Below are positions 2,441 through 59,878 of a stretch of 64,000 nt of DNA, one piece after another (the first letter of the stretch is position 1; each line of letters opens with the position of its first letter). The translations under genes and the position numbers were made by a program. This DNA comes from Euryarchaeota archaeon (GTDB lineage: Archaea; Thermoplasmatota; SW-10-69-26; JACQPN01). The notes below the pieces were generated by a model. The model saw only the letters and a program-made list of their open reading frames with translations. It made no database searches and was not told the DNA's origin. Location of the stretch: the NCBI GenBank assembly GCA_016207515.1, contig JACQPN010000025.1, positions 186,001 through 250,000 of the forward strand. Reading direction: 5' to 3'.

Positions 2441-3412
2441 ATGAAAATCCTCATTACTGGAATCACGGGCATGGTCGGTAGCCACCTTGCCGAATACATT
2501 ACAAAGAACCACGCGACAGCCGAAGTACATGGGTTAGTGCGGTGGCGAAGCCCGCTCGAGAACCTCCGCCAGGTCATGCACAAAGTAACGTTGCATCAGG
2601 CAGAACTACGCGACTTGAATTCCCTCGTCCACCTATTGCGTGAGATCCGACCGGATCGGGTATTCCATCTAGCCGCGCAGTCTTACGTCTCGTCCAGTTT
2701 CATCGCCCCCGCCGACACACTGCAAACCAACGTCATTGGGACCACCAATCTTCTCGACGCTGTTCGCATCGCCGAGCAGGACCCGCTCATCCACATATGC
2801 AGTTCCTCAGAGGTGTACGGTCAGGTCCTACCTTCCGAAGTACCGATAAGCGAGAAAAACCCATTCCGACCCGCGAGCCCGTACGCGGTATCGAAAGTCG
2901 GCGAGGACATGATCGCATACCAGTATTTCTTAAGCTACGGACTCAAGACGATCCGTACGAGAATGTTCACGCACACAGGTCCCCGTCGCGGCGACGTATT
3001 CGCGGAAAGCGCTTTTGCCCAGCAGATTGCCGAGATTGAGTTGGGCCACAGGGAGAATCCCGTTCGGGTGGGAAACCTCGACAGCGTCCGCACAATGGCG
3101 GATGTGCGCGACACTGTTCGAGCCTATTGGTTGATGATGGAAAAGTGCTCACCGGGAGAGGTATATAACATCGGAGGAGAACGCGTCATGACTATCGGGG
3201 AGATCTTGGCGATGCTGAAAAAGATGGCGCGAGTGCCAATCGAACACGTCGTGGATCCGAAGTTGCTCCGGCCGTCCGACGTCACGTTGCAAGTACCCGA
3301 CATCTCCAAATTCAAGGCCGCGACCGGGTGGAGGGCAGAGATTCCCGTGGAAACCACCCTTCGCGATCTATTGGATTATCATCGCGAGCGAACACGCGCC
3401 CACAAAGGGTAG
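2441..3412 (+). CDS. GDP-mannose 4,6-dehydratase-like SDR enzyme
   Basis: 323 aa, an extended short-chain dehydrogenase. The NAD(P)-binding GITGMVGSH lies at residues 7-15, and catalytic Tyr148/Lys152 sit in SPYAVSK with the upstream SSSEVYG Ser/Glu region at 121-127. The R-T-R-M-F-T-H-T-G-P-R-R-G stretch matches the substrate-binding region of GDP-mannose 4,6-dehydratases, where the usual version is N-H-E-S-P-R-R-G (seen in the second copy at 30977). The expected reaction is conversion of a GDP-linked aldose to its 4-keto-6-deoxy form. The neighbours (GHMP heptose-type kinase, RmlC-like epimerase, GMER-like reductase) suggest the substrate may be GDP-manno-heptose rather than GDP-mannose, as in Campylobacter DmhA. 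That substrate is inference; the fold assignment is firm. Confidence 0.8.
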   Translation: MKILITGITGMVGSHLAEYITKNHATAEVHGLVRWRSPLENLRQVMHKVTLHQAELRDLNSLVHLLREIRPDRVFHLAAQSYVSSSFIAPADTLQTNVIGTTNLLDAVRIAEQDPLIHICSSSEVYGQVLPSEVPISEKNPFRPASPYAVSKVGEDMIAYQYFLSYGLKTIRTRMFTHTGPRRGDVFAESAFAQQIAEIELGHRENPVRVGNLDSVRTMADVRDTVRAYWLMMEKCSPGEVYNIGGERVMTIGEILAMLKKMARVPIEHVVDPKLLRPSDVTLQVPDISKFKAATGWRAEIPVETTLRDLLDYHRERTRAHKG

Positions 3413-3422
3413 CCACTGAACC

Positions 3423-4274
3423 TTGAACATTCAGAACCAAAACTTGATCGAGGAATCGCAGATGCAAACTCAAGCTCTTGTCCAGAAGGCCAAAGAAGTC
3501 CGACGCGACACATTCGAGATGGTGATGCGTGCCGGGAAAGGACACCTTGGAGGATCGCTATCTTGTGTCGAAATCTTAGTGGCACTGTACTATGGCAAGA
3601 TTCTCCGCTTCGACGCAGGGAATCCGCGTTGGGAAGGCCGCGATCGACTCGTATTCAGCAAGGCGCACGGCACCAACTCACTTTACGTCGTGCTCGCGGA
3701 CCTCGGGTTGTTTCCGAGAAGCGAATTGGAGCATTTTCTTGACGATGGAAGCATATTGAGTGGGCACACGGACAACAGGATCCCGGGAGTGGAAATCGTC
3801 GGGGGCTCGCTAGGCCACGGGCTTGGCGTCGCGTGCGGGATGGCATTGGCATCCAAGATCGACAAGAAGGAGCACCTCACGGTGGTGATTATCGGCGACG
3901 CGGAGACTCAGGAAGGATCGGTGTGGGAGGCCGCGATTTTCGCCCGGCAACAAAAATTGGGAAATCTCGTCGCAGTCACTGATTATAACAAATTGGGCTC
4001 TGAGGACTTCATTGAGAACACGGCCGGTCTCGCGCCCCTTGCCGAAAAATGGAAAGCCTTCGGGTGGGAAGTCATCGAGATAGACGGCCACTCATTCGCT
4101 GAGATTGAAGGGGCGTTGGCAGGCATCCACGGTCGAAGGTCCGATAGGCCGCTCATGATCATCGCCCACACCGTGAAAGGTAAGGGCATCTCGGCCCTCG
4201 CGAACACACCCCTTGCCCATCACACCTTGCCGCCCGCCGAGCGCATCCCGGAAATCAGGAGAGAACTGGCATGA
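3423..4274 (+). CDS. transketolase, N-terminal (TPP-binding) subunit
   Basis: Up to 283 aa. The longest frame opens with a TTG at 3423; an in-frame ATG at 3462, preceded by GAGGAA, is an equally good start. Family features are GKGHLGGSLS, SKAHGTNSLY and the thiamine diphosphate/Mg site GDAETQEGS...DYNK. Together with the next gene it makes a complete split transketolase, the usual archaeal arrangement. It moves two-carbon ketol units between sugar phosphates and can make sedoheptulose 7-phosphate from pentose phosphates. Its position between a sugar-nucleotide dehydratase and a GHMP heptose-type kinase suggests it supplies a C7 or branched sugar precursor for the glycan. It ends with an ATGA overlap to the C-terminal subunit gene. 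Confidence 0.9.
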   Translation: MNIQNQNLIEESQMQTQALVQKAKEVRRDTFEMVMRAGKGHLGGSLSCVEILVALYYGKILRFDAGNPRWEGRDRLVFSKAHGTNSLYVVLADLGLFPRSELEHFLDDGSILSGHTDNRIPGVEIVGGSLGHGLGVACGMALASKIDKKEHLTVVIIGDAETQEGSVWEAAIFARQQKLGNLVAVTDYNKLGSEDFIENTAGLAPLAEKWKAFGWEVIEIDGHSFAEIEGALAGIHGRRSDRPLMIIAHTVKGKGISALANTPLAHHTLPPAERIPEIRRELA

Positions 4275-5281
4275 AACCCGTCCGCACAATCTACACGGAG
4301 GCGCGGGACGCCACTTTTGAGGAGCTCTACAAAATAGCTGTGGCCGACCGCGATGTGGTCGTCATATCGGCCGACATGGGTGCACGCAAATTCAAGGAAT
4401 TCAAGCGGGATATTCCCGATCAATTCTACAACGTCGGTGTCTCTGAACAGAATGCGATTAGCGTGGCTGGCGGCCTGGCGGTCGAAGGCAAGATCCCGTT
4501 CGTTTACGGAATCGGAAACTTCGTCACGCTGCGGTGCTACGAACAACTCAAGGTGGACGTAGCTTGCATGAATTTGCCAGTGACCGTGATTGGGATGGGC
4601 GCCGGGTACGTATACAGTATCGACGGCCCGACCCACCACATCACTCAAGACATTGCCGTAATGCGGTGCCTGCCCGGCATGACCATCTGGAGCCCCTCAG
4701 ATTACACGATGGCAGGAGGCATAATCCCGCTCGCCTACAGGACACCGGGCCCCAAGTACATCCGCCTGGACAAGGGGCCCTTCACGCCGATGTACGAACC
4801 CGACTCCGCAGAGTTCACACAAGGATGCGGGATTGTACGAAACGGAACCGACCTCACGATTGTCGCCACCGGCGTGATGACCACACAAGCGCTTCAGGTG
4901 GCAGACGACCTTGAAGCGTCAGGGATCAGCGCGCGCGTCGTCGACGTGTACCGATTGAAACCCGTGGACGCACCAAGGCTGGCGTCACTTTTGGACGGGA
5001 CGGCGAGGATAGTGACGCTCGAGGAGCATTCCATCGTAGGCGGCCTTGGAAGCATCATCTTGGAGACCCTTTCGGACCATGGGATCCGAGTTCCCGTCCT
5101 ACGACTTGCCCTTCCTGACCAGTATCGATTCGAAGTTGGAAGCCGAGACTATCTTCGCCGTCTGGACGGCCTGGATCGGCATGGCGTCACGCGGAAAATC
5201 ATGGATTGGGCCAAGAATCCGACGAGCACTGCCGCGGAGAAATCCATGGGAGATGGACTTCGCGTCAGAATGTCTCGTTAA
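4271..5281 (+). CDS. transketolase, C-terminal subunit
   Basis: 336 aa; the ATG overlaps the stop of the N-terminal subunit gene (ATGA). It contains the pyrimidine-binding domain with the catalytic Glu in GVSEQNAIS, the GNFVTLRCYEQLKVD segment and the GPTHHITQD loop, followed by the transketolase C-terminal domain (LEEHSIVGGLGS). It pairs with the protein from 3423 to form the active site at the subunit interface. Length and domain order are normal for the split form. The 41-base gap to the next gene keeps it in the same transcription unit. Confidence 0.9.
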   Translation: MKPVRTIYTEARDATFEELYKIAVADRDVVVISADMGARKFKEFKRDIPDQFYNVGVSEQNAISVAGGLAVEGKIPFVYGIGNFVTLRCYEQLKVDVACMNLPVTVIGMGAGYVYSIDGPTHHITQDIAVMRCLPGMTIWSPSDYTMAGGIIPLAYRTPGPKYIRLDKGPFTPMYEPDSAEFTQGCGIVRNGTDLTIVATGVMTTQALQVADDLEASGISARVVDVYRLKPVDAPRLASLLDGTARIVTLEEHSIVGGLGSIILETLSDHGIRVPVLRLALPDQYRFEVGSRDYLRRLDGLDRHGVTRKIMDWAKNPTSTAAEKSMGDGLRVRMSR

Positions 5282-5321
5282 GCGGTAGCCGTCAATCGTT
5301 CGCCAGTGAGGAAGTTGATCA

Positions 5322-6314
5322 ATGATTATCTCGAGGACCCCGTATCGGATTTCGTTCTTCGGAGGTGGGAGTGATTACCCTGCCTGGTATCTCCGGGAAG
5401 GCGGCGTCGTCTTGTCAACAACGATAGACAAGTACTGCTACATTTCGTGCCGCTACCTGCCGCCCTTCTTCAACATAAAGCACAGGATCGTGTGGTCTCA
5501 TATCGAGACGGTGACGACACTTAAGGACATCTTGCATCCAGCCGTCCGCGAATGTCTGAAGTACATGGGTTTCGACGACGCGCTCGGTCTCGAAATTCAT
5601 CACCAAGGTGACCTCCCGGCGAGAAGCGGAATGGGCTCCAGCTCATCGTTTTCCGTGGGATTGATCCACGCGCTCACGGCCCTTCGCGGCCAGACGATTG
5701 GAAAGCACGAACTGGCGCTGAAAGCAATCGAGCTCGAGCAGAATGTGATGAAAGACAGCGTTGGGGCGCAAGATCAAGTCGCGGCCGCCCACGGTGGACT
5801 AAACCGGATACGGTTTCTCAAGTCAGGAAAGATCGACGTTGAACCTGTGAAGGTCGCCCAAGATCGCCACAAGGAACTTGAATCGAACTTGATCATGCTC
5901 TACACCGGCATGGTCCGCACGGCGTCGGACGTTGCCAAGGAGGTTTCGTCCAATCTCGAAAGGAAGAGCGAATCCGTGCTACGCATGATGGATATGGCGG
6001 AAGAGGGCGCAGCGATCCTTGCGGGCAAAGCCTCCGTCGATGACTTCGGGGCCCTGCTCGACGAGGCCTGGCAATTGAAACGAGGCCTCGCCGAAGCGGT
6101 ATCGAATGACGTCATCGACGGGGTGTACAGGACAGCAAAGGCAAACGGCGCGCTTGGCGGAAAACTGCTTGGCGCAGGCGCCGGAGGGTTCATGCTCTTC
6201 TACATTCCCCCTGGCAAGCAGAGGAACGTGCAACGAGCACTTAGTCAGTACCTATGGGTGCCTTTCTCGTTCGAGTCTACTGGAAGTTCGATCATCGCGA
6301 CCGACGGCGCCTAA
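5322..6314 (+). CDS. GHMP sugar kinase, heptose 7-phosphate kinase-like
   Basis: 330 aa. It begins RTPYRISFFGGGSDYP, the N-terminal signature of the GHMP kinases annotated as D-glycero-D-manno-heptose 7-phosphate kinase (HddA-like). The ATP-binding GHMP motif is LPARSGMGSSSS at residues 98-109, and the C-terminal substrate loop is LGGKLLGAGAGGF near residue 280. It would phosphorylate C1 of a sugar phosphate before nucleotide transfer. The companions normally needed for GDP-heptose (isomerase GmhA, phosphatase GmhB, guanylyltransferase HddC) are not in the window. The exact sugar is therefore unproven; another 6- or 7-carbon sugar phosphate remains possible. Confidence 0.78.
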   Translation: MIISRTPYRISFFGGGSDYPAWYLREGGVVLSTTIDKYCYISCRYLPPFFNIKHRIVWSHIETVTTLKDILHPAVRECLKYMGFDDALGLEIHHQGDLPARSGMGSSSSFSVGLIHALTALRGQTIGKHELALKAIELEQNVMKDSVGAQDQVAAAHGGLNRIRFLKSGKIDVEPVKVAQDRHKELESNLIMLYTGMVRTASDVAKEVSSNLERKSESVLRMMDMAEEGAAILAGKASVDDFGALLDEAWQLKRGLAEAVSNDVIDGVYRTAKANGALGGKLLGAGAGGFMLFYIPPGKQRNVQRALSQYLWVPFSFESTGSSIIATDGA

Positions 6315-6358
6315 CCGGCTGCGGTTTACACAAACTCACACTCTCCCGAGGAAAGAAA

Positions 6359-7360
6359 ATGACCCGATTCAAGAAAATCCTGGTGACTGGGGCGTCCGGC
6401 GTTGCGGGCAGCGGACTGAAAGCCATTGCCAAGGAATATGAGGAAAATGAATTCACCTTCCTCGCATCCCGCGATTGCGACCTGACGGACCCGCAGGCCG
6501 TGGACACCCTTTTCGCAAGGCTGAGACCCGACGCGGTTTTACACATGGCCGCAATCTCTGGTGGAATCGGCCTTAGCACAAAACACCCGGCTACCCTCCT
6601 TCGCGACAACGTCCTCATGAATGTCAACGTCGTCGAGGCGGCTCGGAAATACGAAATAGAAAAAACCGTCATGTCTCTGTCGACAGGGATGTACTCTCCC
6701 AATGCGCCATTGCCAATAAAGGAGGATTACATCCACGATGGCCCCCCCCATTCGTCCAACTATAGCTACGCATTCGCTAAGCGCTTGGTCGATCCGATGA
6801 TTCGTGCTTGGCGATCAGAATTCGGCATGAACTTGATCGGCGTTGTCCCGAACGGGATATTTGGGGAGCACGACAATTTCAATTACGATGACGCTACCCT
6901 GACGCCAACACTCATAAGGAGGTTTTACGAGAATCGCGGAGGGGATAAGGCAATCGTAATGTGGGGTGACGGCTCGCCGCTTCGCGAAGTCACGTACGGG
7001 AAGGACATTGCCCGCGCCTATATGTGGTGCCTAGAGCACTACGATGAACCTCAAATTCTGCACATAGGTACGACAGAGGAACATTCAGTTCGGGAAATCG
7101 CCGAAATGCTGGCCGACATGTACGGGATCTCCCGCGAACGTCTAGAGTTCGACACGAGCAAACCCGCGGGCGTTTCGAGGAAGAGCACCGACAATTCCCG
7201 ATTCGTCAGGCTTAGCGACTTCAAGTACACTGCATATCGGACCGCCTTGGAGAACACCGTGCGCTGGTACGTGGAGACAAGCGAACGAAATCCAGCCAAC
7301 ATTCGCAAGGGGAGCAAGTTGTTCGTTCGCCCCGAGGTCGCGACGGGGAGATTGAGATGA
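6359..7360 (+). CDS. GDP-L-fucose synthase-like epimerase/reductase
   Basis: 333 aa from the ATG at 6359, which follows the purine-rich GAGGAAAGAAA; the frame opens 35 codons upstream, but that part overlaps the previous gene and looks non-coding. It is an extended SDR with GASGVAGSG near the N-terminus and a catalytic Y-A-F-A-K. The overall pattern HMAAISGGIG...NVLMNVNVVEAARKY resembles GMER/Fcl, which epimerises C3/C5 and reduces C4 of GDP-4-keto-6-deoxy sugars. A canonical Fcl is present separately at 32013, so this copy probably acts on another substrate. In Campylobacter a GMER homologue (DdahC/MlghC) reduces GDP-4-keto-6-deoxy-heptose, and that role fits the neighbours here (inference). 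An ATGA overlap leads into the next gene. Confidence 0.78.
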   Translation: MTRFKKILVTGASGVAGSGLKAIAKEYEENEFTFLASRDCDLTDPQAVDTLFARLRPDAVLHMAAISGGIGLSTKHPATLLRDNVLMNVNVVEAARKYEIEKTVMSLSTGMYSPNAPLPIKEDYIHDGPPHSSNYSYAFAKRLVDPMIRAWRSEFGMNLIGVVPNGIFGEHDNFNYDDATLTPTLIRRFYENRGGDKAIVMWGDGSPLREVTYGKDIARAYMWCLEHYDEPQILHIGTTEEHSVREIAEMLADMYGISRERLEFDTSKPAGVSRKSTDNSRFVRLSDFKYTAYRTALENTVRWYVETSERNPANIRKGSKLFVRPEVATGRLR

Positions 7361-8328
7361 GGACACGCGACGTTGGAAAGAGTGGTCTTAAGGTTTCGGA
7401 GGTCGGATTCGGGACCTGGGGCATGGGCGACTCCTACGGACCGGTTGATGATGAAGAATCACGGGCGTCCCTTCGCCTAGGTTTCGAAAACGGAATCATC
7501 TTCTACGACACGGCAGACCTTTACGGAGATGGGCGAAGCGAAAGGCTGATCGGGGAAGCGCTTGGGGACGTCCGCGATGAGATTGTGATTTCATCGAAGA
7601 CAGGATACCTATCGCACGATGGCCACCAGTTGTTCACGCCCGCCCACATACTCAAATCTCTTGACGCCAGCCTCAACCGTCTGGGGACGGACCACCTCGA
7701 TATCTACATGCTCCACAGCCCACCTGTGGACCTATTGGTCAAAGAACCCGCGATACTCGATACCATGCGCGACCTCAAAGATCATGGAAAAATAACGGCA
7801 TTTGGGATTTCGGCGCGTTCGCCCGAAGACGCCGCTCTCGCAATCGCAAAGACCGATCTGGACGTCATGGAGATCAACCTGAACCTTATTGACCAAAGGT
7901 CGAGAAGGAGCGGGCTGTTTGAAGCAGCTTGTCAAGCTGGCGTAGGGCTAATCGCCCGGACACCGCTAGCATTCGGCTTCCTGACCGGTCGCTACGGTCC
8001 GAACGCTACCTTCCCCAATGACGACCATCGTTCATTTTGGCCAAGAGATCAAATCCGCATCTGGGCAGAGGCGCCAAAGAAATTCGAAGAAATCGCCAAT
8101 GCCCGTGGGTGCTCCATCACACAACTAGCCCTACTCTACTGCATTTCGGACCCGGCCGTCGCCAGCGTAATCCCAGGTATGTTGACTGCAAAGGAAGTTC
8201 ATGAGAACGTCGCCGCGGGCGGCCTTCCCGCATTGTCTCCGAAAGAACTCGAGCAAATCGAAAGAATCTATGACAACAATACGTTTTTCGTTGGTGGCCG
8301 GCGGCGAAGAAATGCGGATGACAATTGA
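7357..8328 (+). CDS. aldo/keto reductase
   Basis: 323 aa, a TIM-barrel NADPH-dependent oxidoreductase. The tetrad region is visible: Asp and Tyr in FYDTADLYGDGRSE, Lys in VISSKTGY, and His in YMLHSPPVD. The end carries a G-G-R-R-R-R tail. It probably reduces a keto or aldehyde sugar intermediate of the surrounding sugar pathway. The start overlaps the previous stop (ATGA), so it is translated with the GMER-like gene. Substrate unknown. Confidence 0.85.
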   Translation: MRTRDVGKSGLKVSEVGFGTWGMGDSYGPVDDEESRASLRLGFENGIIFYDTADLYGDGRSERLIGEALGDVRDEIVISSKTGYLSHDGHQLFTPAHILKSLDASLNRLGTDHLDIYMLHSPPVDLLVKEPAILDTMRDLKDHGKITAFGISARSPEDAALAIAKTDLDVMEINLNLIDQRSRRSGLFEAACQAGVGLIARTPLAFGFLTGRYGPNATFPNDDHRSFWPRDQIRIWAEAPKKFEEIANARGCSITQLALLYCISDPAVASVIPGMLTAKEVHENVAAGGLPALSPKELEQIERIYDNNTFFVGGRRRRNADDN

Positions 8329-8909
8329 ACCTTGTGCCTCCAGGCCAGGAAGCGGTTGACAGCATGCATACAGCGCGAACAGTATTCGAAACCAAATGGT
8401 TCCAGATCCTCGAGGAATCTTTTCCGGAACACCCAGAACTTGGGAGCGAACCGTACTATACTATCCGCGCCCCGCCGGGGGTGATCGTGCTTGCTTTGAC
8501 CCGCAGGCGCGAGGTTGTCCTCGTGAAGCAATTCCGACCCGCCGTGCGCGAATCGACATTGGAATTTCCGAGCGGGCAAATGAATGCCGATGAGATGCCG
8601 GAAGACGCCGCGGCCCGTGAACTTCTTGAAGAGACAGGTTACACCGCTCGAACCTACACGTACCTGGGCCGGTACAAAGCACTCACGAGTCGTAATGGCT
8701 CCAAGCAACACGTTTTCGTGGCGGAGGATGCCTCGCCTACGGGCCACCATGAACCAGAGCGCGGCATCCAAGTCATTCTTGCTACTCTACCGGAACTAAA
8801 GAATCGTGTGGCGTCGGGTGAATTTGACGTGTTTCAGTATCTCGGTGCGTTGGTTTTGGCAGACTGGAAAGCCGGTAAGGGCCTACTAGCCGCCGCTGGT
8901 GGAGGCTGA
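8325..8909 (+). CDS. Nudix hydrolase (ADP-ribose pyrophosphatase-like)
   Basis: Up to 194 aa. The longest frame starts with a TTG overlapping the previous stop codon; an in-frame ATG at 8364 (residue 14) is a plausible alternative. The Nudix box is complete: G, five residues, E, seven residues, then RELLEETGY. The upstream segment VVLVKQFRPAVRESTLEFPSG is typical of ADP-ribose/nucleotide-sugar pyrophosphatases. In this locus it could remove or recycle nucleotide sugars, or be a housekeeping ADP-ribose pyrophosphatase carried along. It is followed by a TGATG junction with the next gene. Confidence 0.85.
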   Translation: MNLVPPGQEAVDSMHTARTVFETKWFQILEESFPEHPELGSEPYYTIRAPPGVIVLALTRRREVVLVKQFRPAVRESTLEFPSGQMNADEMPEDAAARELLEETGYTARTYTYLGRYKALTSRNGSKQHVFVAEDASPTGHHEPERGIQVILATLPELKNRVASGEFDVFQYLGALVLADWKAGKGLLAAAGGG

Positions 8910-9904
8910 TGGCTATCAACGACCAGGAACGGACTTCCCATGTCGACGATGTGTCGACGCCGGCAAAGGACCGATCCCACCGACGCATAGACGTCAAAGA
9001 ATTTGCCCTTGCAGTGGGACGCAGCCCTAGTGAGATTCCGCCTGACGTGGTAGACCTCATCAATGCCACCCCGCTCCTTTACCAGAGACCTGATGAAAGC
9101 CTGCGACACGCCACGATGGATCGCGTGAGAGACGTTCTTCGTAAAGACGCCCTACCGAAGTCGAACGCGAGCCGAAAGGACGATTGGGAACGCGGGTGGG
9201 GCGAAAATCTCCAGGCGTACTCTGGCGGCGACGAAATTGAGAGCGCGCTGAGACCGCGTTATTTCCACCCCACAAACGTAATCCGTTGGCGCGGCGACTA
9301 CGCCGGTGTCCCGGATCCTGATTTCGAAATACGTCTGGTCGCAGCGTTTCGTCGATGGATCTATCATGCATACTTACGCGACGCCTCAAGAGTCTTCGAG
9401 TTCGGATGTGGCACCGGCCGAAACCTCGTTGATCTTGCCAAGGTTTTCCCGGAAAAGGAACTCGTTGGGCTCGATTGGGCCCAATCCGCGGTGAATCTTG
9501 TTAATGCCGTCGGCAAGGCCCAAGGTCTGCACCTCCGTGGTCGTCTCTTCGATTTCTTTGATCCAGACGATACCATCGTGATGGGGAAAGGCACCGCGAT
9601 ATTCACGCTGGCGGCGCTGGAACAAGTGGGAGCCCAGCATCGGAAATTCATCGATTTTCTTATCGGGCATGAACCCGATATCTGCGTCCACCTGGAGCCA
9701 CTGGTCGAACTGTACGAGCCGGATCATTCGTTCGATCAGATGGCCATCAAGTATCACCATATGCGAGGATACCTAGAAGGTTTCCTGCCTGCTATCCGTC
9801 GTCTGGAAAGCCAAGGGCAGGCCGAGATATTGGAAGTGCGCAGGTTCCAATTTGGAAGTCTTTTCCACGAGGCCTACTCTCTGCTCGTTTGGAGACCACG
9901 GTAG
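8909..9904 (+). CDS. SAM-dependent methyltransferase
   Basis: 331 aa, beginning at the ATG that shares its A with the previous stop. A roughly 150-residue N-terminal region with no recognised domain precedes a class I methyltransferase core: motif I VFEFGCGTGRN, the acidic end of strand 2 in VGLDWAQ, and a later FTLAALEQVG. The C-terminal part is Tyr/His rich. It probably methylates a sugar or a glycan intermediate, judged from position in the module. Acceptor unknown. Confidence 0.75.
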   Translation: MAINDQERTSHVDDVSTPAKDRSHRRIDVKEFALAVGRSPSEIPPDVVDLINATPLLYQRPDESLRHATMDRVRDVLRKDALPKSNASRKDDWERGWGENLQAYSGGDEIESALRPRYFHPTNVIRWRGDYAGVPDPDFEIRLVAAFRRWIYHAYLRDASRVFEFGCGTGRNLVDLAKVFPEKELVGLDWAQSAVNLVNAVGKAQGLHLRGRLFDFFDPDDTIVMGKGTAIFTLAALEQVGAQHRKFIDFLIGHEPDICVHLEPLVELYEPDHSFDQMAIKYHHMRGYLEGFLPAIRRLESQGQAEILEVRRFQFGSLFHEAYSLLVWRPR

Positions 9905-10009
9905 TGGGGAACGAGCTTTCTTCATCCGCATTCGGCCCCAGTCAACTTTGGCTTCCGATGACGGCCACGGACGACCCAATTTGATGAGACGATTCACGGG
10001 AGATGTGCT

Positions 10010-10510
10010 ATGGAAGTTGTAAAAACCAAACTGGATGGAGTCCTGATGATCACGCCCCCGACCGTATTCCACGATTTTCGCGGCTCGTATGTGGAAATAT
10101 ACAACGAGCAATTGTATCGACAATTTGGGATCCACGTGAACTTCGTGCAAGACGACATTTCCACTTCCACTCGACATGTGCTTCGAGGATTGCATGGGGA
10201 CAACGAGACCTGGAAGCTTATCAGCTGCCTGTACGGAAAAATCTACCAAGTAGTTACGAATAACGACCCGACCCACCCCCAATACCGCAAATGGGAAGCA
10301 TTCACCCTCTCCGACGAGAACCGATTGCAATTGCTCATTCCGCCAAGATTTGCTAACGGTCACGTTGTCATGAGCGATCGGGCCATATTCCACTACAAGC
10401 AAAACACGTACTACAACAGGAATGGCCAGTTCACCATCAAGTGGAACGACCCGGCGCTGAAAATCTGGTGGCCCGTCAAGGACCCGATTCTCAGCGAGCG
10501 CGATTCCTAG
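10010..10510 (+). CDS. RmlC-like sugar-nucleotide 3,5-epimerase
   Basis: 166 aa cupin protein of the dTDP-4-dehydrorhamnose 3,5-epimerase family. LRGLHGD at 58-64 carries the catalytic His62, Lys69 follows, and the second half has PPRFANGH at 111-118, the Tyr-rich stretch 129-135 and W-N-D-P near 145-148. The variant LRG-L/I-HGD and the ending PILSERD are, as I recall, features of Campylobacter DdahB/MlghB, which epimerise GDP-4-keto-6-deoxy-heptose, rather than of true RmlC (LRGLHYQ). No RmlA, RmlB or RmlD lies nearby, so a dTDP-rhamnose role is unlikely. The DNA of this gene is markedly AT-richer than genes further downstream. Confidence 0.82.
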   Translation: MEVVKTKLDGVLMITPPTVFHDFRGSYVEIYNEQLYRQFGIHVNFVQDDISTSTRHVLRGLHGDNETWKLISCLYGKIYQVVTNNDPTHPQYRKWEAFTLSDENRLQLLIPPRFANGHVVMSDRAIFHYKQNTYYNRNGQFTIKWNDPALKIWWPVKDPILSERDS

Positions 10511-27920: not shown

Positions 27921-29681
27921 ATGAAGCGCGTCATCCTCGGCATCTCCGCATTCCACGGCGACTCTTCAGCCGCGCTGGTCGTTGACGGCCAACTGGTGGC
28001 AGCCGTCGAGGAGGAGCGGTTCCGCCGCATCAAGCATTGGGCAGGGTTCCCGAGTGAGTCGATCAAGAGGTGTCTGGAGATCGGAGGCGTTTCTCCTGCC
28101 GCGGTCACGGATTTCGCTATCGCGCGAGACCCCAACGCCCACCTCCTGCGCAAGGCATTGTTCGTCGCGTCGCGGCTCCCCAGCCCAAGGCTCGTGGGTG
28201 ACCGCGCCCGAAACTCCGGCCGCATTAGGAACGTTCCCGGTCGGGTGGCGGAGACGCTTGGGCTCGACTCAAAAAGCGTGTCAAGCCGGACCCATTGGGT
28301 CGAACACCATCCGGCGCATCTCGCCAGCGCCTACTATGCATCACCGTTCGAGGAGGCAGCGGTCTGCGCAATAGACGGCTTCGGGGATTTCGTCAGCACT
28401 TCGTACGCCGTTGGACGCGGGCCCCGCCTCGACGTGGTCGATCGTGTGCATTTCCCCCACTCTCTTGGGATGCTCTATCTCGCGATCACGCAATTCCTCG
28501 GCTTCACGAAGTACGGCGATGAGTACAAGGTCATGGGCCTTGCCCCGTACGGCTCGCCGGAACACGCCGAAAAGATCCGAAAGCTCCTCCGCCTCCGGCC
28601 GAAGGGTCGCTTCGAATTGGATCTGTCCTACTTCCGCCACCACACGGGCGGCGTGAACATGACGTGGGACGAAGGTGAGCCCACGATGGGCGCCGTCTAC
28701 TCGAAGAGGATGGAGGAGCTCCTCGGAAAACGACGAGATCCCAAGGAGGCCGTGGCAAAGAAGCACGAGGACCTCGCCGCTTCCTTGCAAGTCGTGTTCG
28801 AGGAGGCGCAGGCGCACGTGCTCAATGGCTTGGCGGAACGTACGCGGATGTCGAGGCTCGCCTTTGCCGGAGGATGCGCGATGAACAGCGTCGCGAACGG
28901 CAAGATCCGTGAAAGGACCGATTTCAAAGAGGTCTTCATCCAACCCGCGGCCGGCGACGCCGGCACTTCGCTTGGCGCAGCGCTCTACGTCCATAACATG
29001 AAGGGCGGAACCGGACCGCGGTTCGTGATGCACCATTCCTATTGGGGGCCCTCGTTCGACGACGCTTCCCACGGGGCAGCCATCAAAGCGCGGGAGACTG
29101 ACCTCCTGGGCCAACATTGCACTTTCAAGGAATTCCCCGAAGAGGAGGCGCTTTGCTCGTATGTGGCCGGCCGGATATCAGAGGGCGCCATCGTCGGCTG
29201 GTTCCAGGGCCGCATGGAATGGGGCGCGCGCGCCCTTGGGAACAGGAGCATCCTCGCGGATCCACGAAGAGCGGACATGCGCGAGATCATCAACACGAAG
29301 ATCAAGTTCCGGGAGAGGTTCCGACCGTTCGCACCATCGATCCTGAAGGAATCTCTTAGCGACTTCTTCGTGGACGCCGTCCCGGATCCTTTCATGATCC
29401 AAGTCTACCCCGTCCGTGCGGACAAAAGGACGATCATCCCGGCCGTGACACACGTCGACGAATCGGGGCGGCTCCAGACCGTGGACCGGGCCGCCAATCC
29501 CCGCTATTGGCTCTTACTGAAGCACTTTGAGAAGCGCACCGGTGTGCCGGTACTCTTGAACACCTCATTCAACGAGAACGAACCGATCGTGCACAGGCCG
29601 GAGGAGGCGCTGGATTGTTTCCTGCGCACAAAGATGGACGTCCTGGCGCTCGGGAACCGCGTCCTGGAAAAGAGAACTTGA
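27921..29681 (+). CDS. NodU/CmcH-type O-carbamoyltransferase
   Basis: 586 aa. GISAFHGDSSAALVVDG begins the N-terminal ASKHA-type domain; the metal-site histidines lie in EHHPAHLASAYY, followed by AIDGFGDF. The C-terminal YrdC-like/Kae1-like part has FAGGCAMNSVANGKI, GDAGTSLGAAL, WGARALGNRSILADPR and RFRPFAPSI. It transfers a carbamoyl group from carbamoyl phosphate to a hydroxyl on a sugar, as in Nod factors and antibiotics. It is preceded by GAAGGAG. Full length, with all characteristic motifs. It decorates the polymer made by this locus (inferred from context). Confidence 0.9.
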   Translation: MKRVILGISAFHGDSSAALVVDGQLVAAVEEERFRRIKHWAGFPSESIKRCLEIGGVSPAAVTDFAIARDPNAHLLRKALFVASRLPSPRLVGDRARNSGRIRNVPGRVAETLGLDSKSVSSRTHWVEHHPAHLASAYYASPFEEAAVCAIDGFGDFVSTSYAVGRGPRLDVVDRVHFPHSLGMLYLAITQFLGFTKYGDEYKVMGLAPYGSPEHAEKIRKLLRLRPKGRFELDLSYFRHHTGGVNMTWDEGEPTMGAVYSKRMEELLGKRRDPKEAVAKKHEDLAASLQVVFEEAQAHVLNGLAERTRMSRLAFAGGCAMNSVANGKIRERTDFKEVFIQPAAGDAGTSLGAALYVHNMKGGTGPRFVMHHSYWGPSFDDASHGAAIKARETDLLGQHCTFKEFPEEEALCSYVAGRISEGAIVGWFQGRMEWGARALGNRSILADPRRADMREIINTKIKFRERFRPFAPSILKESLSDFFVDAVPDPFMIQVYPVRADKRTIIPAVTHVDESGRLQTVDRAANPRYWLLLKHFEKRTGVPVLLNTSFNENEPIVHRPEEALDCFLRTKMDVLALGNRVLEKRT

Positions 29682-30976: not shown

Positions 30977-32020
30977 ATGAAGAAAGCGCTAGTGACCGGG
31001 GTGACGGGCCAAGACGGGTCCTACCTCACCGAACTGCTCCTAGGGAAAGGCTACGAGGTCCATGGGATCATCCGGCGCGCTTCGAGTTTCAACACGGGTA
31101 GGCTCGACCACCTCTATCATGACCCGCACGAGAAGGGGACCCGCCTCTTCCTCCATCACGGCGACATGACGGACGGGACGAGCCTACGACGCATCATGGA
31201 GACGGTGCGGCCAGACGAGGTCTACAACCTCGGCGCCCAATCGCACGTCAAGGTGAGTTTCGACCTGCCGGAGTACACGGCCGATACGGTCGCCATGGGC
31301 ACGCTACGGATGCTGGAGACCCTTCGAGACCACGCCGCGACGACGGGTCGGCAAGTGAAGTACTATCAGGCTGGATCCTCCGAGATGTTCGGATCGACGC
31401 CTCCGGCGCAGTCCGAGACCAGCCCTTTCCTTCCTCGTAGCCCATACGCGGCGAGCAAGGTCGCTGCCCACCACTACGCTGTGAACTACCGCGAGGCGTA
31501 CGGGCTTTTCATCGCGAATGGCATCCTGTTCAACCACGAATCACCTCGACGTGGAGAGACTTTCGTGACAAGGAAGATCACGAGGGCTGTGGGCAGGATC
31601 AAGTTAGGCCTCCAGAAAACACTGTACTTGGGCAACCTCGAAGCGCAGCGCGATTGGGGATTCGCGGGGGATTACGTCGAGGCCATGTGGTCGATGCTCC
31701 AAGCAACGACCGCGGGGGATTTCGTCGTCGCCACGGGCCGCTCGCACTCGGTGACCGAGTTCGTGGAGGCGGCGTTCTCTCATGCCAAACTGGATTGGAA
31801 GGCCCACGTCAAGGTGGACAAGAGATACCTTCGCCCCACGGAGACCGATCACCTGCGCGGCGACGCATCCAAAGCCGCGCGCACGCTCGGTTGGAAGCCG
31901 CGTATCGGCTTCGAGGAACTCGTCCAGATGATGGTCGATCACGATCTTGAGCTCGCCCAGCAGGAAAAGACGCTAAGACTAGCGGGCCACAAAGTGGGCG
32001 GAGGCAAGGCCAATGAATAG
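30977..32020 (+). CDS. gmd: GDP-mannose 4,6-dehydratase
   Basis: 347 aa, near-canonical. [19 protein letters not shown] binds NADP, followed by [17 protein letters not shown]; the catalytic set is in QAGSSEMFG and SPYAASK; the substrate region is [16 protein letters not shown]; and the C-terminal [13 protein letters not shown] is diagnostic. It converts GDP-D-mannose to GDP-4-keto-6-deoxy-D-mannose. The next gene encodes GDP-L-fucose synthase and overlaps it by 8 bases, so the two make GDP-L-fucose for the locus. The second, shorter dehydratase at 2441 is more divergent. Confidence 0.95.
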
Positions 32021-32972
32021 GGGGTCGAAGATCTTCGTCGCTGGGCACCGCGGCCTGGTCGGCTCCGCGATAACGAGACGATTACAATCCGCCGGCCACA
32101 CCAACCTCGTCACGAGGACGCGAAACGAGCTCGACTTGACGGACCAGGCCCGGGTACGCGGGTTCTTCGACGAGGAGCGACCCGAATTCGTGTTCGTCGC
32201 GGCCGCAAAGGTCGGCGGCATCCATGCCAACAACACGCTCCCGGCCGAGTTCATCTGGAACAACCTGATGATACAATCCAATGTAATCGATGCCGCTTAC
32301 AGGTCGGGTGTGACGAAGCTCCTATTCCTAGGTTCTTCCTGCATCTACCCGCGCCTCGCTCCGCAGCCGATGAAAGAGGAACACCTGCTGACTGGTAGCC
32401 TCGAACCCACGAACGAATGGTATGCCGTGGCGAAGATCGCCGGCATCAAGACGTGCCAGGCCTACCGGCGGCAATACGGGTTCGATGCGATAAGCGCCAT
32501 GCCGGCGAACCTCTACGGGCCCGGCGACAACTTCCACCCCTTGTATTCCCACGTGCTTCCGGCATTGATGAGACGATTCCACGAAGCCAAGAAGGCGGGC
32601 GCCAAGGATGTCGTGATTTGGGGGACTGGCGCACCGCGGCGCGAGTTCCTGCACTGCGACGACTTGGCCGATGCCGCGCTTTTCCTGATGGAGACGTACG
32701 AGGACGAACGGACCATCAACGTCGGCGCCGGCACCGACATGACCATCGGCGAAGCGGCACGCACCATGGCCGAAGTCGTCGGATACCATGGCCAAGTCAT
32801 GTTCGATCCGAGTAAGCCCGACGGCCAACCGAAGAAATTGCTCGACACGACGCGCCTCTCGAACCTGGGTTGGCGGCCAAAGATCCCCTTCCGCAAAGGC
32901 CTGGAAGACACCTACCGCTGGTTCCTCGAGAACGAGTCGTCCATCCTGGCGGAGCCAGCTCTTGCACCCTGA
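32013..32972 (+). CDS. fcl: GDP-L-fucose synthase
   Basis: 319 aa. [13 protein letters not shown] is the NADP loop. [23 protein letters not shown] and the catalytic [11 protein letters not shown] (Y-x3-K) all match GMER/Fcl, and the substrate motif NLYGPGDNF follows. It epimerises C3 and C5 and reduces C4 of the Gmd product to give GDP-L-fucose. It overlaps the gmd stop codon region, so it is co-translated. Normal length. Confidence 0.95.
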
Positions 32973-47025: not shown

Positions 47026-47970
47026 TTGACATTGCACTCCCTCATCGACGTGTTCTCAGGCTCCGGCGGCTTCAGTCGCGGCTTCGCGGCCCTCCGCTTC
47101 ACGCCGACTTTCGCCGTTGAGGCTTTTCCACCGCACGCCGTCGCCTACGCGACGAATTTTCCGGGGTCGCGCGTCGAGGTACTTCGCGTCGAGGAGATCA
47201 GGGATTGGCCGAAGTGCGACGTTCTCATCGGAGGCCCGCCGTGCGAACCGTTCACGGGAGCGAACCCCAACAGGTCGCAAGATGCCGCGAAACGGCTCAA
47301 CGAGGATCCCGTCGGGAGGCTTGTCCTCGAATTCGCCCGAATCGCCGGAATCGTGAAGCCGCGCGTTTTCGTGATGGAGAACGTTCCCGGTGTCGCGGCC
47401 GGCGCGGCGGAGAAGATCCTACGCGAGTCATTTTCCGCTGCGGGCTATGGGCGGATCTGGATCAACCGTTTGCACGCCGAGGAACATGGGACGCCATCGA
47501 GAAGGACGCGCGTCTTCATTTCGAACATACCGATCTCTCCACGAAAGGTCCCGGTGGTCGTCACGGTCTCGGAGGCCCTTGCAGGGCTGCCGCCGCCCGA
47601 CACGGGTCTTTCGAACCACGAGACGACGACGGTGAGTCCTGAAAAGGCCGAAAAGATCCGGCGACTCCGGCCCGGTTCGTCGCTCGTCAAGTACAGAGGA
47701 GCAAGCGGCCGCGGCCACTCGAATTGGACTAGGCTCTACGCCGACCAATTAGCTCCGCCGGTCATGGGGAAGAGCCGCTTCGTCCACCCGGTGGAGGACC
47801 GACTCTTGACGGTTCGCGAGAATGCGCGTCTCATGGGCTTTCCCGACGAGCACGTTTTTTCAGGCGGGCGCGATACGCAGTACGAGCAGGCTGGGGAAGC
47901 GGTGCCGCCGCCGTTGGCCCGCGCCGTCGCATCGGAAGTCCTTGCGTACCTTGACGCGACCAAGGGATAA
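47026..47970 (+). CDS. DNA (cytosine-5) methyltransferase
   Basis: 314 aa, TTG start at 47026. m5C motifs are in order: I (DVFSGSGGFSRGF), IV (GGPPCEPFTGAN, catalytic Cys), VI (MENVPG), VIII (PSRRTRVFI), IX (LTVRENARLMGFPD) and X (EQAGEAVPPPLA). The target-recognition region between VIII and IX is short, as in single-domain enzymes such as M.HhaI. There is no restriction endonuclease or Vsr next to it, so it is an orphan methyltransferase that may mark the chromosome or counter restriction. Target sequence unknown. Confidence 0.9.
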   Translation: MTLHSLIDVFSGSGGFSRGFAALRFTPTFAVEAFPPHAVAYATNFPGSRVEVLRVEEIRDWPKCDVLIGGPPCEPFTGANPNRSQDAAKRLNEDPVGRLVLEFARIAGIVKPRVFVMENVPGVAAGAAEKILRESFSAAGYGRIWINRLHAEEHGTPSRRTRVFISNIPISPRKVPVVVTVSEALAGLPPPDTGLSNHETTTVSPEKAEKIRRLRPGSSLVKYRGASGRGHSNWTRLYADQLAPPVMGKSRFVHPVEDRLLTVRENARLMGFPDEHVFSGGRDTQYEQAGEAVPPPLARAVASEVLAYLDATKG

Positions 47971-56862: not shown

Positions 56863-58440
56863 GTGGGTCCGGTGTCAAACGTGCGCCGAGGCATCCACAC
56901 GATCGCGATGGTGCTCGTTCTTGCAACCGCCCTCACCCCCCCTCCCGCTTCGGCCTATGAAGCGGGCCATGCACCCGATGCGGGGCCTGCAGGATGGCAC
57001 GAGGTCAATGTCGAGGCGTTCGTTCTAGCCTCCGATGAGACTCTCGACATTGACCGTGACACCATCATCCGGGCGAAGGAGCAGATCGTGTTGGCCGGCG
57101 ACTTGCTGCTACGCCGTGCCTCCGGGTCCCTTTCTGGCCCCTCGCTCGCACTCGTCGCAGGCGGCGACGTATCGATCCTCGGGCGGATAATCGCCGCTGC
57201 GGGAGGAGGTGGACGCCCCGGGTCGCCGGACGGCGGCGACGGAAGCGATGTCATCATCATCACGGTCGAAGGACACGTCGGATTCGGACCTGATTCCCTG
57301 GTCGCGACGGGACATGGCGGACACGGCCTCGACGTTCGGACTTCAGATCAGGCGCCATCACCCACGGACAGATTCATCCGTGGGGGCGACGGCGGGGACG
57401 CAGGAACGCTCTTCGTGAACGCCCGTTGGTTCTCATCGACAGGCGGCGTCCACTACGGCGCTGGAGGCAAAGGTGGGTTCGCACTGGGGGACGGGTTTTC
57501 CTCTCCCTTTGACGGCCCAGCTATCCTACGTGGCGGCGATGGCGGGACGGGCGGGTACGGAATCTACGTCAACGACACGGAAGGGTTCCTGATCCCGGCC
57601 CGAGACGGACCAGACGCCCTTGCGGCGCGATCAGCGCCTCGGGAGAATGGACCTGCGTCCGCGCCCGCCGCCGGCGCCGGGCCTTGCGTCTCCCACGGCG
57701 TCGACGGCACACCGTCCGTGATCGGCGACGGCGGAGCCGGCGGCGATGCGTGCAGCCTCGGTCTGGACGGAACAGATGGGGCAAACGGCGCCAATGGCAC
57801 GGGCGCCCCCTTGAGTTGCAGCCCTGGCGCCCCCGGAAGTGCCGGCACCGCCGGCGCGGGCGCCGCCGCCGCTCTCGGTGGAAACGGTGGTTTTGCCCTC
57901 GTTGGCAACGGTGGGCCCGGCGGCTCGGCCACAACGAGAGCCGGAAGCGGCGGGAACGGGGGCTCAGGCGGCAATGGCGGCAGCTCGTGGGTTGGTGCCG
58001 GCTGCGCGGGCGGCAATGGGGGAGCCGGCGGGCCAGCCGGCGCGTCCGCGAACGCCACGGGCGGGGGCGGCGGCACATCCGTTTGCGGAATCGGCGGCAG
58101 CGGCGGCACCGCGTCGACCGTCGGGGGCGTCGGCGGCGCCGGCGGAGCAGGCGGGGCCGGCGGTTCCGGAATGCCAAGCGGCGGGCCGCCCGGCGAACCC
58201 GGCCTCCCCGGAGGCTCGACGCCTGCCGGGGTACCTCTCGCGGGGCCCGCGGGGGCAGGCCTTCAGGCTTGCGGCGCCCTCTTGGTCCCTGTGAAACCGA
58301 TCGTTGACAGGGTCAGCAACGCCGATGAGACGTTGATCCCTTGGTCCGCCCTTCCACCGATGCCCTACATCAATCCGAATTCCCCAGAGGTGCCAAGCGT
58401 TTGCACCTACCTCGAGGCCCTATGCGGGCCCAATACGTGA
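56863..58440 (+). CDS. glycine-rich secreted surface protein (PE_PGRS-like composition)
   Basis: 525 aa, GTG start; a signal peptide ends about PPPASA (residue 31). About 120 residues of beta-type sequence (VLAGDLLLRRASG, LALVAGGDVSILGRI) are followed by Gly-rich repeats with G-G-x-G-G, G-N-G-G and G-G-A-G patterns for about 250 residues. A collagen-like Gly-x-y stretch (PSGGPPGEPGLPGGS) and a C-terminal domain with cysteines end it. Such repeats can form polyglycine-II-type bundles. No C-terminal membrane anchor. It is a paralogue of the next gene, which begins 13 bases later. Cell-surface or matrix role inferred. Confidence 0.75.
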   Translation: MGPVSNVRRGIHTIAMVLVLATALTPPPASAYEAGHAPDAGPAGWHEVNVEAFVLASDETLDIDRDTIIRAKEQIVLAGDLLLRRASGSLSGPSLALVAGGDVSILGRIIAAAGGGGRPGSPDGGDGSDVIIITVEGHVGFGPDSLVATGHGGHGLDVRTSDQAPSPTDRFIRGGDGGDAGTLFVNARWFSSTGGVHYGAGGKGGFALGDGFSSPFDGPAILRGGDGGTGGYGIYVNDTEGFLIPARDGPDALAARSAPRENGPASAPAAGAGPCVSHGVDGTPSVIGDGGAGGDACSLGLDGTDGANGANGTGAPLSCSPGAPGSAGTAGAGAAAALGGNGGFALVGNGGPGGSATTRAGSGGNGGSGGNGGSSWVGAGCAGGNGGAGGPAGASANATGGGGGTSVCGIGGSGGTASTVGGVGGAGGAGGAGGSGMPSGGPPGEPGLPGGSTPAGVPLAGPAGAGLQACGALLVPVKPIVDRVSNADETLIPWSALPPMPYINPNSPEVPSVCTYLEALCGPNT

Positions 58441-58453
58441 TGGAGTCACCACA

Positions 58454-59878
58454 ATGTCCGCCCCGGCCACTGCTCGCTACTTCACCGTTTGCTTGATCAT
58501 GGGACTCGTCGGCGCCACGCCCGTTCACGCGTCGCTCGACCTTAGGGTCAACGACATCGTGACGTGGCCGGCTCCGAGCGAACCACCGGAGGTCTCCGCT
58601 CCGATCCTTTCGCCAGGTCCGGAGCTCCGCATCGAATTCGACGGGCCATTGACCATCGATCGGGCGATAGTGCCCATGCGTATCGACGGGGAGCCGGTCA
58701 CGGTGCGGGTACGTGTAACGGACGATTTGATGATCGGTGCCGACATCCGAGTCTCCGACGGAAACGCGGGGAACGCTTCCTGGCGGAATGGAACAGATGG
58801 TGCGAACATCATCCTTGAGTCGACGTCGGGCCGCATCATCCTTGCCGGCTATGCCCTCACGGCCGGCGACGGCGGGGCCGGTCTCGGATCAAGGGAGACA
58901 AATGCCATCGGCGGAAACGGGGGCCGTGGTGGGGGCATCTGGCTCCTGGCAGAGGAAGTGGTCGGTCCAGCGATCATCAACGTCGGGAACGGCGGCCCCG
59001 GCGGAGACGCCCTCTCGAGCGGCCCAAAAGACGTGTGGAACCGCGGGGGCGATGGAGGCGATTCGGGGCGGGTGTTTCCCGCGCATCTTGCGTCGATCTC
59101 CACCGGCGGCGTCGGCGGCAAGGGCGGAAACGCCGGATTGCAGGACCCCCAATACGGGGATCCTGAATGGGCCGCAAGGAGCGATTCCAATCCCTACGCA
59201 GATGACCGCGTGTGCGTCGACGACCCGGAAGCCTTCCCAAGCGCAAACACGTCAGCCCTAGTCGCGAATCCCCTCGTTCCCGTAGGTGACGACAGCGGCC
59301 GCCAGGGCGGAAACGCCAGCGCAGTCGCCCGGGCCGGAATCGCGTCCTGTCGACCTGGCTTTGACGCGGGAAACGGTGGAAACGCGACATCGATCGCGGG
59401 CAGCGGGGGAAACGGCATGCGGCGCGGAGGAAACGGCGGACTTGCCTACGCTCGCGCCGGCGCCGGCGCCAATGTGACCGTCCCGCACTGCGCGGGGACG
59501 GCCGGTAACGGCGGCTGGGGTGGAAACGCCACCGCTCAAGCTGGCGATGGTGGCGCCGCCACCAACGGGCCCGGGGGCGACGGCGGAGCTGCCATCGCCT
59601 GGGCAGGAAGCGCGGGAGATGGCGGCACCGGAGCCCGCCCTGGGACTGGAGGAACCGGTGGCTGGGCGAATGCCACGGCAGGCGACGGCGGCCTAGGGCT
59701 CACGGGCGGAGGTAGCGGCGGCGACGCGACAAGCCTCAATGGGGGCGGAGGCGCCGGCGGGGCCGGATGCGCCCTACCCCTCGCCTCTCGCACATCGACC
59801 ATCGGCTACGAAGGGGCCGCAATAACGACGTTGCTTCTCCTTGGTTTGGCTGCCTGGGCGCGTAGACGCGTACGTTGA
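58454..59878 (+). CDS. glycine-rich surface protein with C-terminal membrane anchor
   Basis: 474 aa. Signal peptide (CLIMGLVGATPVHA), an N-terminal beta-type domain, then a long Gly-rich region (GGDGGDSG, GGVGGKGGNAG, GNGGNATSIAGSGGNG) with G-N-G-G-x repeats, and at the C-terminus a hydrophobic segment (AAITTLLLLGLAAWA) followed by RRRVR. This is the layout of an archaeal protein anchored by its C-terminus, but no PGF-CTERM motif is seen. It shares GGDGGDxG and STGGVxxxGGKGG with the preceding protein. The two may assemble together, with this one tethering the complex. Ends 5 bases from convergent topA. Confidence 0.75.
   Translation: MSAPATARYFTVCLIMGLVGATPVHASLDLRVNDIVTWPAPSEPPEVSAPILSPGPELRIEFDGPLTIDRAIVPMRIDGEPVTVRVRVTDDLMIGADIRVSDGNAGNASWRNGTDGANIILESTSGRIILAGYALTAGDGGAGLGSRETNAIGGNGGRGGGIWLLAEEVVGPAIINVGNGGPGGDALSSGPKDVWNRGGDGGDSGRVFPAHLASISTGGVGGKGGNAGLQDPQYGDPEWAARSDSNPYADDRVCVDDPEAFPSANTSALVANPLVPVGDDSGRQGGNASAVARAGIASCRPGFDAGNGGNATSIAGSGGNGMRRGGNGGLAYARAGAGANVTVPHCAGTAGNGGWGGNATAQAGDGGAATNGPGGDGGAAIAWAGSAGDGGTGARPGTGGTGGWANATAGDGGLGLTGGGSGGDATSLNGGGGAGGAGCALPLASRTSTIGYEGAAITTLLLLGLAAWARRRVR

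Follow-up and report, generated by a model that had tools for sequence, protein, structure and literature searches.

A predicted GDP-6-deoxy-heptose module of bacterial origin in a polysaccharide locus of a Thermoplasmatota archaeon

Which nucleotide sugar would a nine-gene run in the polysaccharide locus of an archaeon supply, and with which other genes of the organism would it work? The run lies at positions 2441-10510 of the window, a stretch of 64,000 nucleotides from contig JACQPN010000025.1 (here C25; positions 186,001 to 250,000) of the Euryarchaeota archaeon assembly GCA_016207515.1 (phylum Thermoplasmatota), which measures 2.67 Mb and is 98% complete. An earlier sequence-only reading had proposed that genes of this run synthesize a modified GDP-heptose, with GmhA, GmhB and HddC either located elsewhere or replaced. 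Having searched the rest of the genome family by family, we consider it fairly probable that the run is a bacterial module for the GDP-linked 6-deoxy-heptose of this polysaccharide locus, working with native genes elsewhere; a GDP-6-deoxy-heptose module completed by the native GmhA and GmhB is likely, and a branched product is possible.

The run comprises nine intact open reading frames (ORFs), all on the plus strand, with spacing from small overlaps up to ~105 bases (L026 and L028 denote two bacterial loci with related modules):

2441..3412, +, GDP-heptose 4,6-dehydratase-like short-chain dehydrogenase/reductase (SDR; GMD-like)
3462..4274, +, split transketolase-like enzyme, N-terminal subunit, thiamine pyrophosphate (TPP)-binding (PF00456; scoring 249 bits on NCBIfam transketolase, under the curated cut-off)
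4271..5281, +, split transketolase-like enzyme, C-terminal subunit (PF02779 and PF02780; TPP glutamate present)
5322..6314, +, HddA-like GHMP sugar kinase of a sister subfamily to characterized HddA/WcbL (by the HddA model, solved relatives and kinase tree)
6359..7360, +, GDP-fucose-synthase-like predicted C4-reductase (GMER-like) without the epimerization dyad
7357..8328, +, aldo/keto reductase (AKR; PF00248), a possible second ketoreductase, with relatives in the L026 and L028 modules
8364..8909, +, Nudix hydrolase with an intact Nudix box (PF00293); the L026 relative sits between kinase and epimerase
8909..9904, +, S-adenosylmethionine (SAM)-dependent methyltransferase (Pfam methyltransferase domains; relative in the L028 module)
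10010..10510, +, cupin C3/C5-epimerase of the GDP-heptose (HGD) type by tree (RmlC-like)

The genes named before (GMD-like, split transketolase, kinase, GMER-like and RmlC-like) are thus present, intact and as placed, in a run that also holds the AKR, Nudix and methyltransferase genes missing from that list. Pfam assigned to the run a GMD-like SDR, transketolase N, transketolase pyrimidine and C, GHMP kinase, NAD epimerase, aldo/keto reductase, Nudix, methyltransferase and dTDP-sugar isomerase domains.

Origin and family placement of the module

The genes, their family placements, residue patterns and genomic context were observed directly, as was the foreign origin of the run. The module was acquired from bacteria, judging by its low GC content and by an epimerase type that occurs in no other sampled genome of the phylum. 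GC content is 0.562 over the first 12 kb of the window vs. 0.61-0.63 in the remaining window and the other contigs, and the module genes range from 0.50 to 0.58 vs. 0.61 for the canonical gmd/fcl pair of the same locus; of the 389 further genomes sampled in the phylum, none has the epimerase (E 1e-35). The closest relatives are bacterial, in Verrucomicrobia for the kinase (65%) and the epimerase (71-72%), in Alphaproteobacteria for the GMD-like protein (73%) and in Nitrospira for the GMER-like protein (59%). L028 carries a kinase, transketolase pair, GMER (59%), AKR, methyltransferase and epimerase in nearly the order of the window, and L026 combines gmhA, an HddC-like gene, gmhB, kinase, Nudix and epimerase in one run, with its kinase falling in the clade of the window kinase.

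The RmlC-like protein carries the LRGLHGD and PILSERD motifs that had suggested a likeness to Campylobacter DdahB/MlghB. We built a tree of 21 rows, comprising 13 HGD-motif proteins (the window protein, Campylobacter 8db5 and 11 from other genomes) and 8 RmlC-type proteins, 5 of which adjoin annotated rml genes in their records; in this and the other trees, the Campylobacter, RMD and WcbL reference rows are partial, being copied from PDB alignments. The two types split at 100/100, and the window protein stood on the HGD side with the Campylobacter GDP-heptose epimerase, not with true RmlC, the 8db5 row itself sitting on a long branch. The catalytic residues His67, Lys74, Tyr134 and Asp173 are all present in the window protein, as they are in RmlC, and it also keeps His123, which touches the C7 hydroxyl in DdahB (PMC7949155) and has Phe as its counterpart in most true RmlC. 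By the tree, the protein is most likely of the GDP-heptose C3/C5-epimerase type, with that activity predicted. Service in a dTDP-rhamnose pathway, for which a score of 152.8 bits on the RmlC model (just below the cut-off of 155.75) might be cited, is hardly credible. A true RmlC for dTDP-rhamnose was rejected on the tree and on the lack of RmlA genome-wide, where the 4 sugar nucleotidyltransferases are 1 mannose-1-phosphate guanylyltransferase-like protein, 2 archaeal GlmU-like proteins and 1 GalU (the genome-wide search did not extend to RmlB and RmlD); the sequence-only reading had likewise called this role unlikely, seeing no RmlA/B/D. Besides the epimerase, the genome encodes no PF00908 (RmlC) homologue.

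The GMD-like protein likewise groups with a heptose enzyme: the characterized GDP-heptose 4,6-dehydratase, 7us5, shares its clade of 16 rows (99/98), while RMD and proteins from archaea of the same order form another clade and GMD stands apart as well. Upon alignment with the E. coli and human GDP-fucose synthases, the GMER-like protein keeps the Ser-Tyr-Lys triad (Ser107, Tyr136 and Lys140), with Gly/Thr in place of the Cys109/His179 epimerization dyad. MlghC and DdahC also lack this dyad, having Tyr/Arg and Thr/His, respectively (PMC7949155). Loss of the dyad suggests that the GMER-like enzyme is probably a plain C4-reductase. The protein is nearest to animal GDP-fucose synthase, not DdahC/MlghC; sequence searches, on which this comparison rests in place of a tree, did not put it beside the Campylobacter reductases. 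With a separate epimerase and a reductase-only partner, the module would follow the logic of Campylobacter, arrived at from another branch of the GDP-fucose synthase family. The separate pathway to GDP-fucose that had been recognized in the locus is real, and its genes are as follows:

30977..32020, +, canonical GDP-mannose 4,6-dehydratase (gmd), grouping with E. coli Gmd at 100/100
32013..32972, +, canonical GDP-L-fucose synthase (fcl), with the Ser-Tyr-Lys triad intact and likewise the Cys/His dyad

The kinase and the native heptose genes

The solved proteins closest to the window kinase are HddA-type kinases (4n3o, 3k85 and 4usk). A kinase tree of 43 rows resolved two subfamilies at 100/100, the first with Campylobacter HddA, Burkholderia WcbL and kinases from archaea of the same order, and the second with the window kinase, its bacterial relatives and a kinase of Thermoplasma acidophilum. 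The assignment of the window kinase as HddA-like therefore needs amending, since its place is not within the HddA/WcbL clade but in a sister subfamily, though one linked to GmhA both in co-occurrence and in gene order. Among 390 genomes of the phylum, kinase and GmhA were both found in 164, the kinase only in 29, GmhA only in 10 and neither in 187, an odds ratio of 106 that is not corrected for relatedness and to which the E-value limit admits some first-subfamily kinases. The two genes lie within 3 kb of each other in 57 of the 81 genomes with both positions listed, and gmhA, gmhB, an HddC-like gene and the kinase share one locus in the bacterial L026, L068 and L077. Contig ends and score thresholds affect all such neighborhood counts, and the sampled genomes are not independent of each other. 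Besides the window kinase, its genome encodes no HddA-like kinase; the remaining 4 GHMP proteins are shikimate, mevalonate and pantoate kinases and mevalonate diphosphate decarboxylase.

Kinases of both subfamilies turn up elsewhere in the phylum. In one Thermoplasmatota genome (G183; L147:3527-18300 and L148:300-6500), a single contig holds both a gmhB/HddC-like/gmhA/kinase set and a window-type kinase (50%) accompanied by a GMD-like gene (59%), an E1alpha/beta pair, gmhB and a second GmhA-like gene; in genome G210, the gmhB-gmhA locus L153:2661-6900 holds two GHMP kinases, one per subfamily. In T. acidophilum, a window-subfamily kinase (L163:8819-9802, minus strand) and a GmhA-like gene (L164:7991-8536, minus strand) are found at separate places. 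D-glycero-D-galacto-heptose has been reported in a glycan of this species (PMC12448462), and these two are candidate genes for it. T. acidophilum belongs to the phylum as well, its proteasome alpha subunit being 100% identical to a protein of the Thermoplasmatota genome G098.

GmhA and GmhB, which the window lacks, are not absent from the organism: gmhA (phosphoheptose isomerase, 185 bits) and gmhB (170 bits) are adjacent at ~50.3-51.5 kb of contig C7, within a glycosyltransferase cluster, a glycosyltransferase gene preceding gmhA. Misbinning of C7 is unlikely, because its composition matches the genome, with tetranucleotide correlations of ~0.96-0.98 with the window beyond 12 kb, C12 and upstream C25. 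In two genomes of the same order (G013 and G037), the homologous genes form an hddA-gmhA-gmhB operon, and possibly the native kinase was lost here and the acquired one took over, or the native kinase was lost from the assembly. The search for the third missing gene was less rewarding, as no dedicated HddC was found in the genome; the best candidate (L004) reached 99 bits of 300 on HddC and 245 of 440 on mannose-1-phosphate guanylyltransferase. An ADP-heptose route via HldE was ruled out, the best RfaE-domain score being 33 bits of 345.

The proposed route is predicted from sequence in all of its reactions and substrates. GmhA from C7 would isomerize sedoheptulose-7-phosphate (S7P), the window kinase would phosphorylate C1, GmhB would remove the phosphate at C7, and a guanylyltransferase (candidate on C12) would join GMP to the sugar. 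The GMD-like enzyme would then yield a 4-keto-6-deoxy sugar, which the RmlC-like enzyme would epimerize at C3, at C5 or at both before reduction of C4 by the GMER-like enzyme, with the methyltransferase and Nudix hydrolase as presumptive accessories.

Rival readings and the transketolase-like pair

Several observations weigh against the heptose route. The window kinase scores 148.9 bits on the NCBIfam HddA model (cut-off 600) and lies outside the clade of characterized heptose kinases; within the stretch read, gmhA occurs in only 15 and gmhB in 6 of 80 bacterial loci carrying the kinase (L008-L087). Where DdahB has Ile56, a residue reported to accommodate C7, the window epimerase carries Ser like RmlC, and the Campylobacter epimerases also use a GDP-mannose-derived substrate (PMC7949155). 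In addition, gmhA and gmhB are not on the contig of the module in an assembly that is 98% complete, so that we infer their pairing with it. The guanylyltransferase is the weak link, with no dedicated HddC and a lone guanylyltransferase-like gene that may just supply GDP-mannose to the canonical gmd/fcl pair. Placement of the kinase, the lack of HddC, the mannose-1-phosphate type of this gene and the Ser in the epimerase would also fit a module making a GDP-6-deoxy-hexose, with the kinase serving another sugar and the C7 GmhA/GmhB something else. We regard this as unlikely, given that both dehydratase and epimerase group with heptose enzymes, that the kinase co-occurs with GmhA and adjoins it in many relatives, that gmhA and gmhB of this genome would otherwise be left without a kinase, and that L026 holds the whole gmhA-HddC-gmhB-kinase-Nudix-epimerase run.

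The role of the transketolase-like pair bears on the product in another way. The PP domain is on one chain and the Pyr and C domains are on the other, with the counterpart of the TPP-binding E411 present. One might surmise an ordinary transketolase supplying S7P, the start of the heptose route, seeing that transketolase is the best family match of the pair (249 and 178 bits) and that the C subunit comes nearest, among solved proteins, to a split transketolase that is functional. In E. coli TktA, residues S385, H461 and R520 bind the sugar phosphate. Their counterparts are Arg, Gly and Lys in the window but Thr, His and Arg in the genome's own C10 transketolase, and Phe at 434 is also lost from the window subunit. 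Among 23 other locus-linked C subunits that we aligned, H461 is Gly in 23 of 23, Ser at 385 occurs in none and R520 is variable and lost in most, whereas the functional split transketolase of Carboxydothermus retains the ATHAG motif, the His and the Arg (PMC7661550); S385, D469, R520 and R358 determine substrate choice (PMC10787763, PMC7661550). The genome also has two further transketolase N-subunits, on C5 and C10, and in other loci the transketolase is replaced by E1-like pairs, which are not expected to make S7P. On these grounds the pair is probably no S7P supplier, and an ordinary transketolase is a distinctly improbable account of it.

What the pair may do instead is add a two-carbon branch to a keto-sugar. 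In the 80 bacterial kinase loci, a split transketolase was found in 22, an E1alpha/beta-like pair in 36 and both in 0 (Fisher p 9e-8); the loss of substrate contacts and this mutual exclusion together make branching, rather than S7P supply, a possible role. A GMD-like gene and the TPP enzyme lie within 300 bp of each other in 7 of 12 loci having both, the gap in the window being 49 bp. There are precedents for proposed two-chain TPP branching enzymes on nucleotide-linked keto sugars, namely AviB1/B2, Pau11/12, EvdU5/EvdS3 and the miharamycin split transketolase (PMC4753412, PMC12247030): split transketolases have been proposed to transfer hydroxyacetyl to keto sugars in miharamycin/amipurimycin (PMC12247030), and E1-like pairs to add acetyl at C4, with an AKR shown to reduce the branch in paulomycin (PMC4753412). 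These precedents lend plausibility to a route to a branched-chain GDP sugar, in which the GMD-like enzyme would yield a 4-keto-6-deoxy sugar (heptose or hexose), the TPP enzyme would ligate a two-carbon unit to the keto carbon, and the AKR and/or the GMER-like enzyme would reduce the branch carbonyl. Such a route, which would add to the heptose route without contradicting it, is a real possibility that falls short of probable. The published transketolase cases are themselves unproven (PMC12247030) and the substrate is only predicted; the mutual exclusion may partly reflect lineage; the window is without the RfbH-like pyridoxal phosphate (PLP) enzyme of 52 of the 80 loci; and its AKR is not especially near any sugar-branch reductase. 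Our literature search yielded nothing direct on HddA with transketolase, nor on transketolase with branched nucleotide sugars. The same 80 loci include one radical SAM family in 35 (e.g. L081:7448-8956).

The modified GDP-heptose of the sequence-only reading is partly supported, by the groupings of dehydratase and epimerase and by the GmhA and GmhB of the genome, but perhaps incomplete, as the transketolase-like pair may add a branch. We further postulate, tentatively and with more doubt than for the branched product itself, an undescribed and widespread class of loci making two-carbon-branched GDP sugars, of which the window would be an archaeal member building a branched 6-deoxy-heptose; equally tentatively, the class would use an HddA-like kinase, a GDP-heptose-type dehydratase or other SDR, and a modified split transketolase or E1-like pair.

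Relation to known systems and wider meaning

The capsule GDP-6-deoxy-heptose pathway of Campylobacter jejuni employs GmhA, HddA, GmhB, HddC, a 4,6-dehydratase, a C3/C5-epimerase and a C4-reductase (PMC10680097). The archaeal system shares with it the grouping of dehydratase and epimerase, an epimerase of its own plus a dyad-less fucose-synthase-like reductase, and a gmhB outside the cluster. It differs in its archaeal host, its sister-subfamily kinase, the lack of a clear HddC and a reductase from another branch of GDP-fucose synthases, and it has the split transketolase-like pair, AKR, Nudix hydrolase and methyltransferase in addition. The operons of G013 and G037 share a lineage with the C7 pair (gmhA 53-60% and gmhB 42-50% identical), but their kinase is in the HddA/WcbL clade and their GMD-like genes group with RMD. 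With the branched sugar pathways of avilamycin (AviB1/AviB2), paulomycin (Pau11/Pau12 and the AKR Pau7) and miharamycin (split transketolase), the module has in common a two-chain TPP enzyme in a deoxysugar pathway and, for paulomycin, also an AKR; those are antibiotic clusters, whereas the window module is of GDP type, has an HddA-like kinase and lies in a polysaccharide locus (PMC4753412, PMC12247030).

Around the module, this locus contains glycosyltransferases, an asparagine-synthase-type protein, a carbamoyltransferase, a WecA/MraY-type transferase and the canonical gmd/fcl. The carbamoyltransferase (27921-29681) is of NodU type, which suggests a carbamoylated sugar in the glycan. Elsewhere in the window, an ORF at 47026-47970 resembles a C5-cytosine DNA methyltransferase with a PPCEPF motif and has no obvious restriction partner among the larger ORFs of the window, and 56863-59878 encodes two neighboring long, repetitive, Gly/Ala-rich proteins with signal-like N-termini.

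Our literature search found no publication on GDP-heptose genes in archaea. The present analysis identifies the kinase, GmhA and GmhB as candidate heptose genes in close to half of the sampled Thermoplasmatota genomes, and points to the addition of a bacterial GDP-6-deoxy-heptose module in a single lineage with gmhA and gmhB retained. Should the TPP enzyme indeed branch the sugar, the module would give a testable answer to whether split transketolases accept keto-sugars, here and in many bacteria as well.

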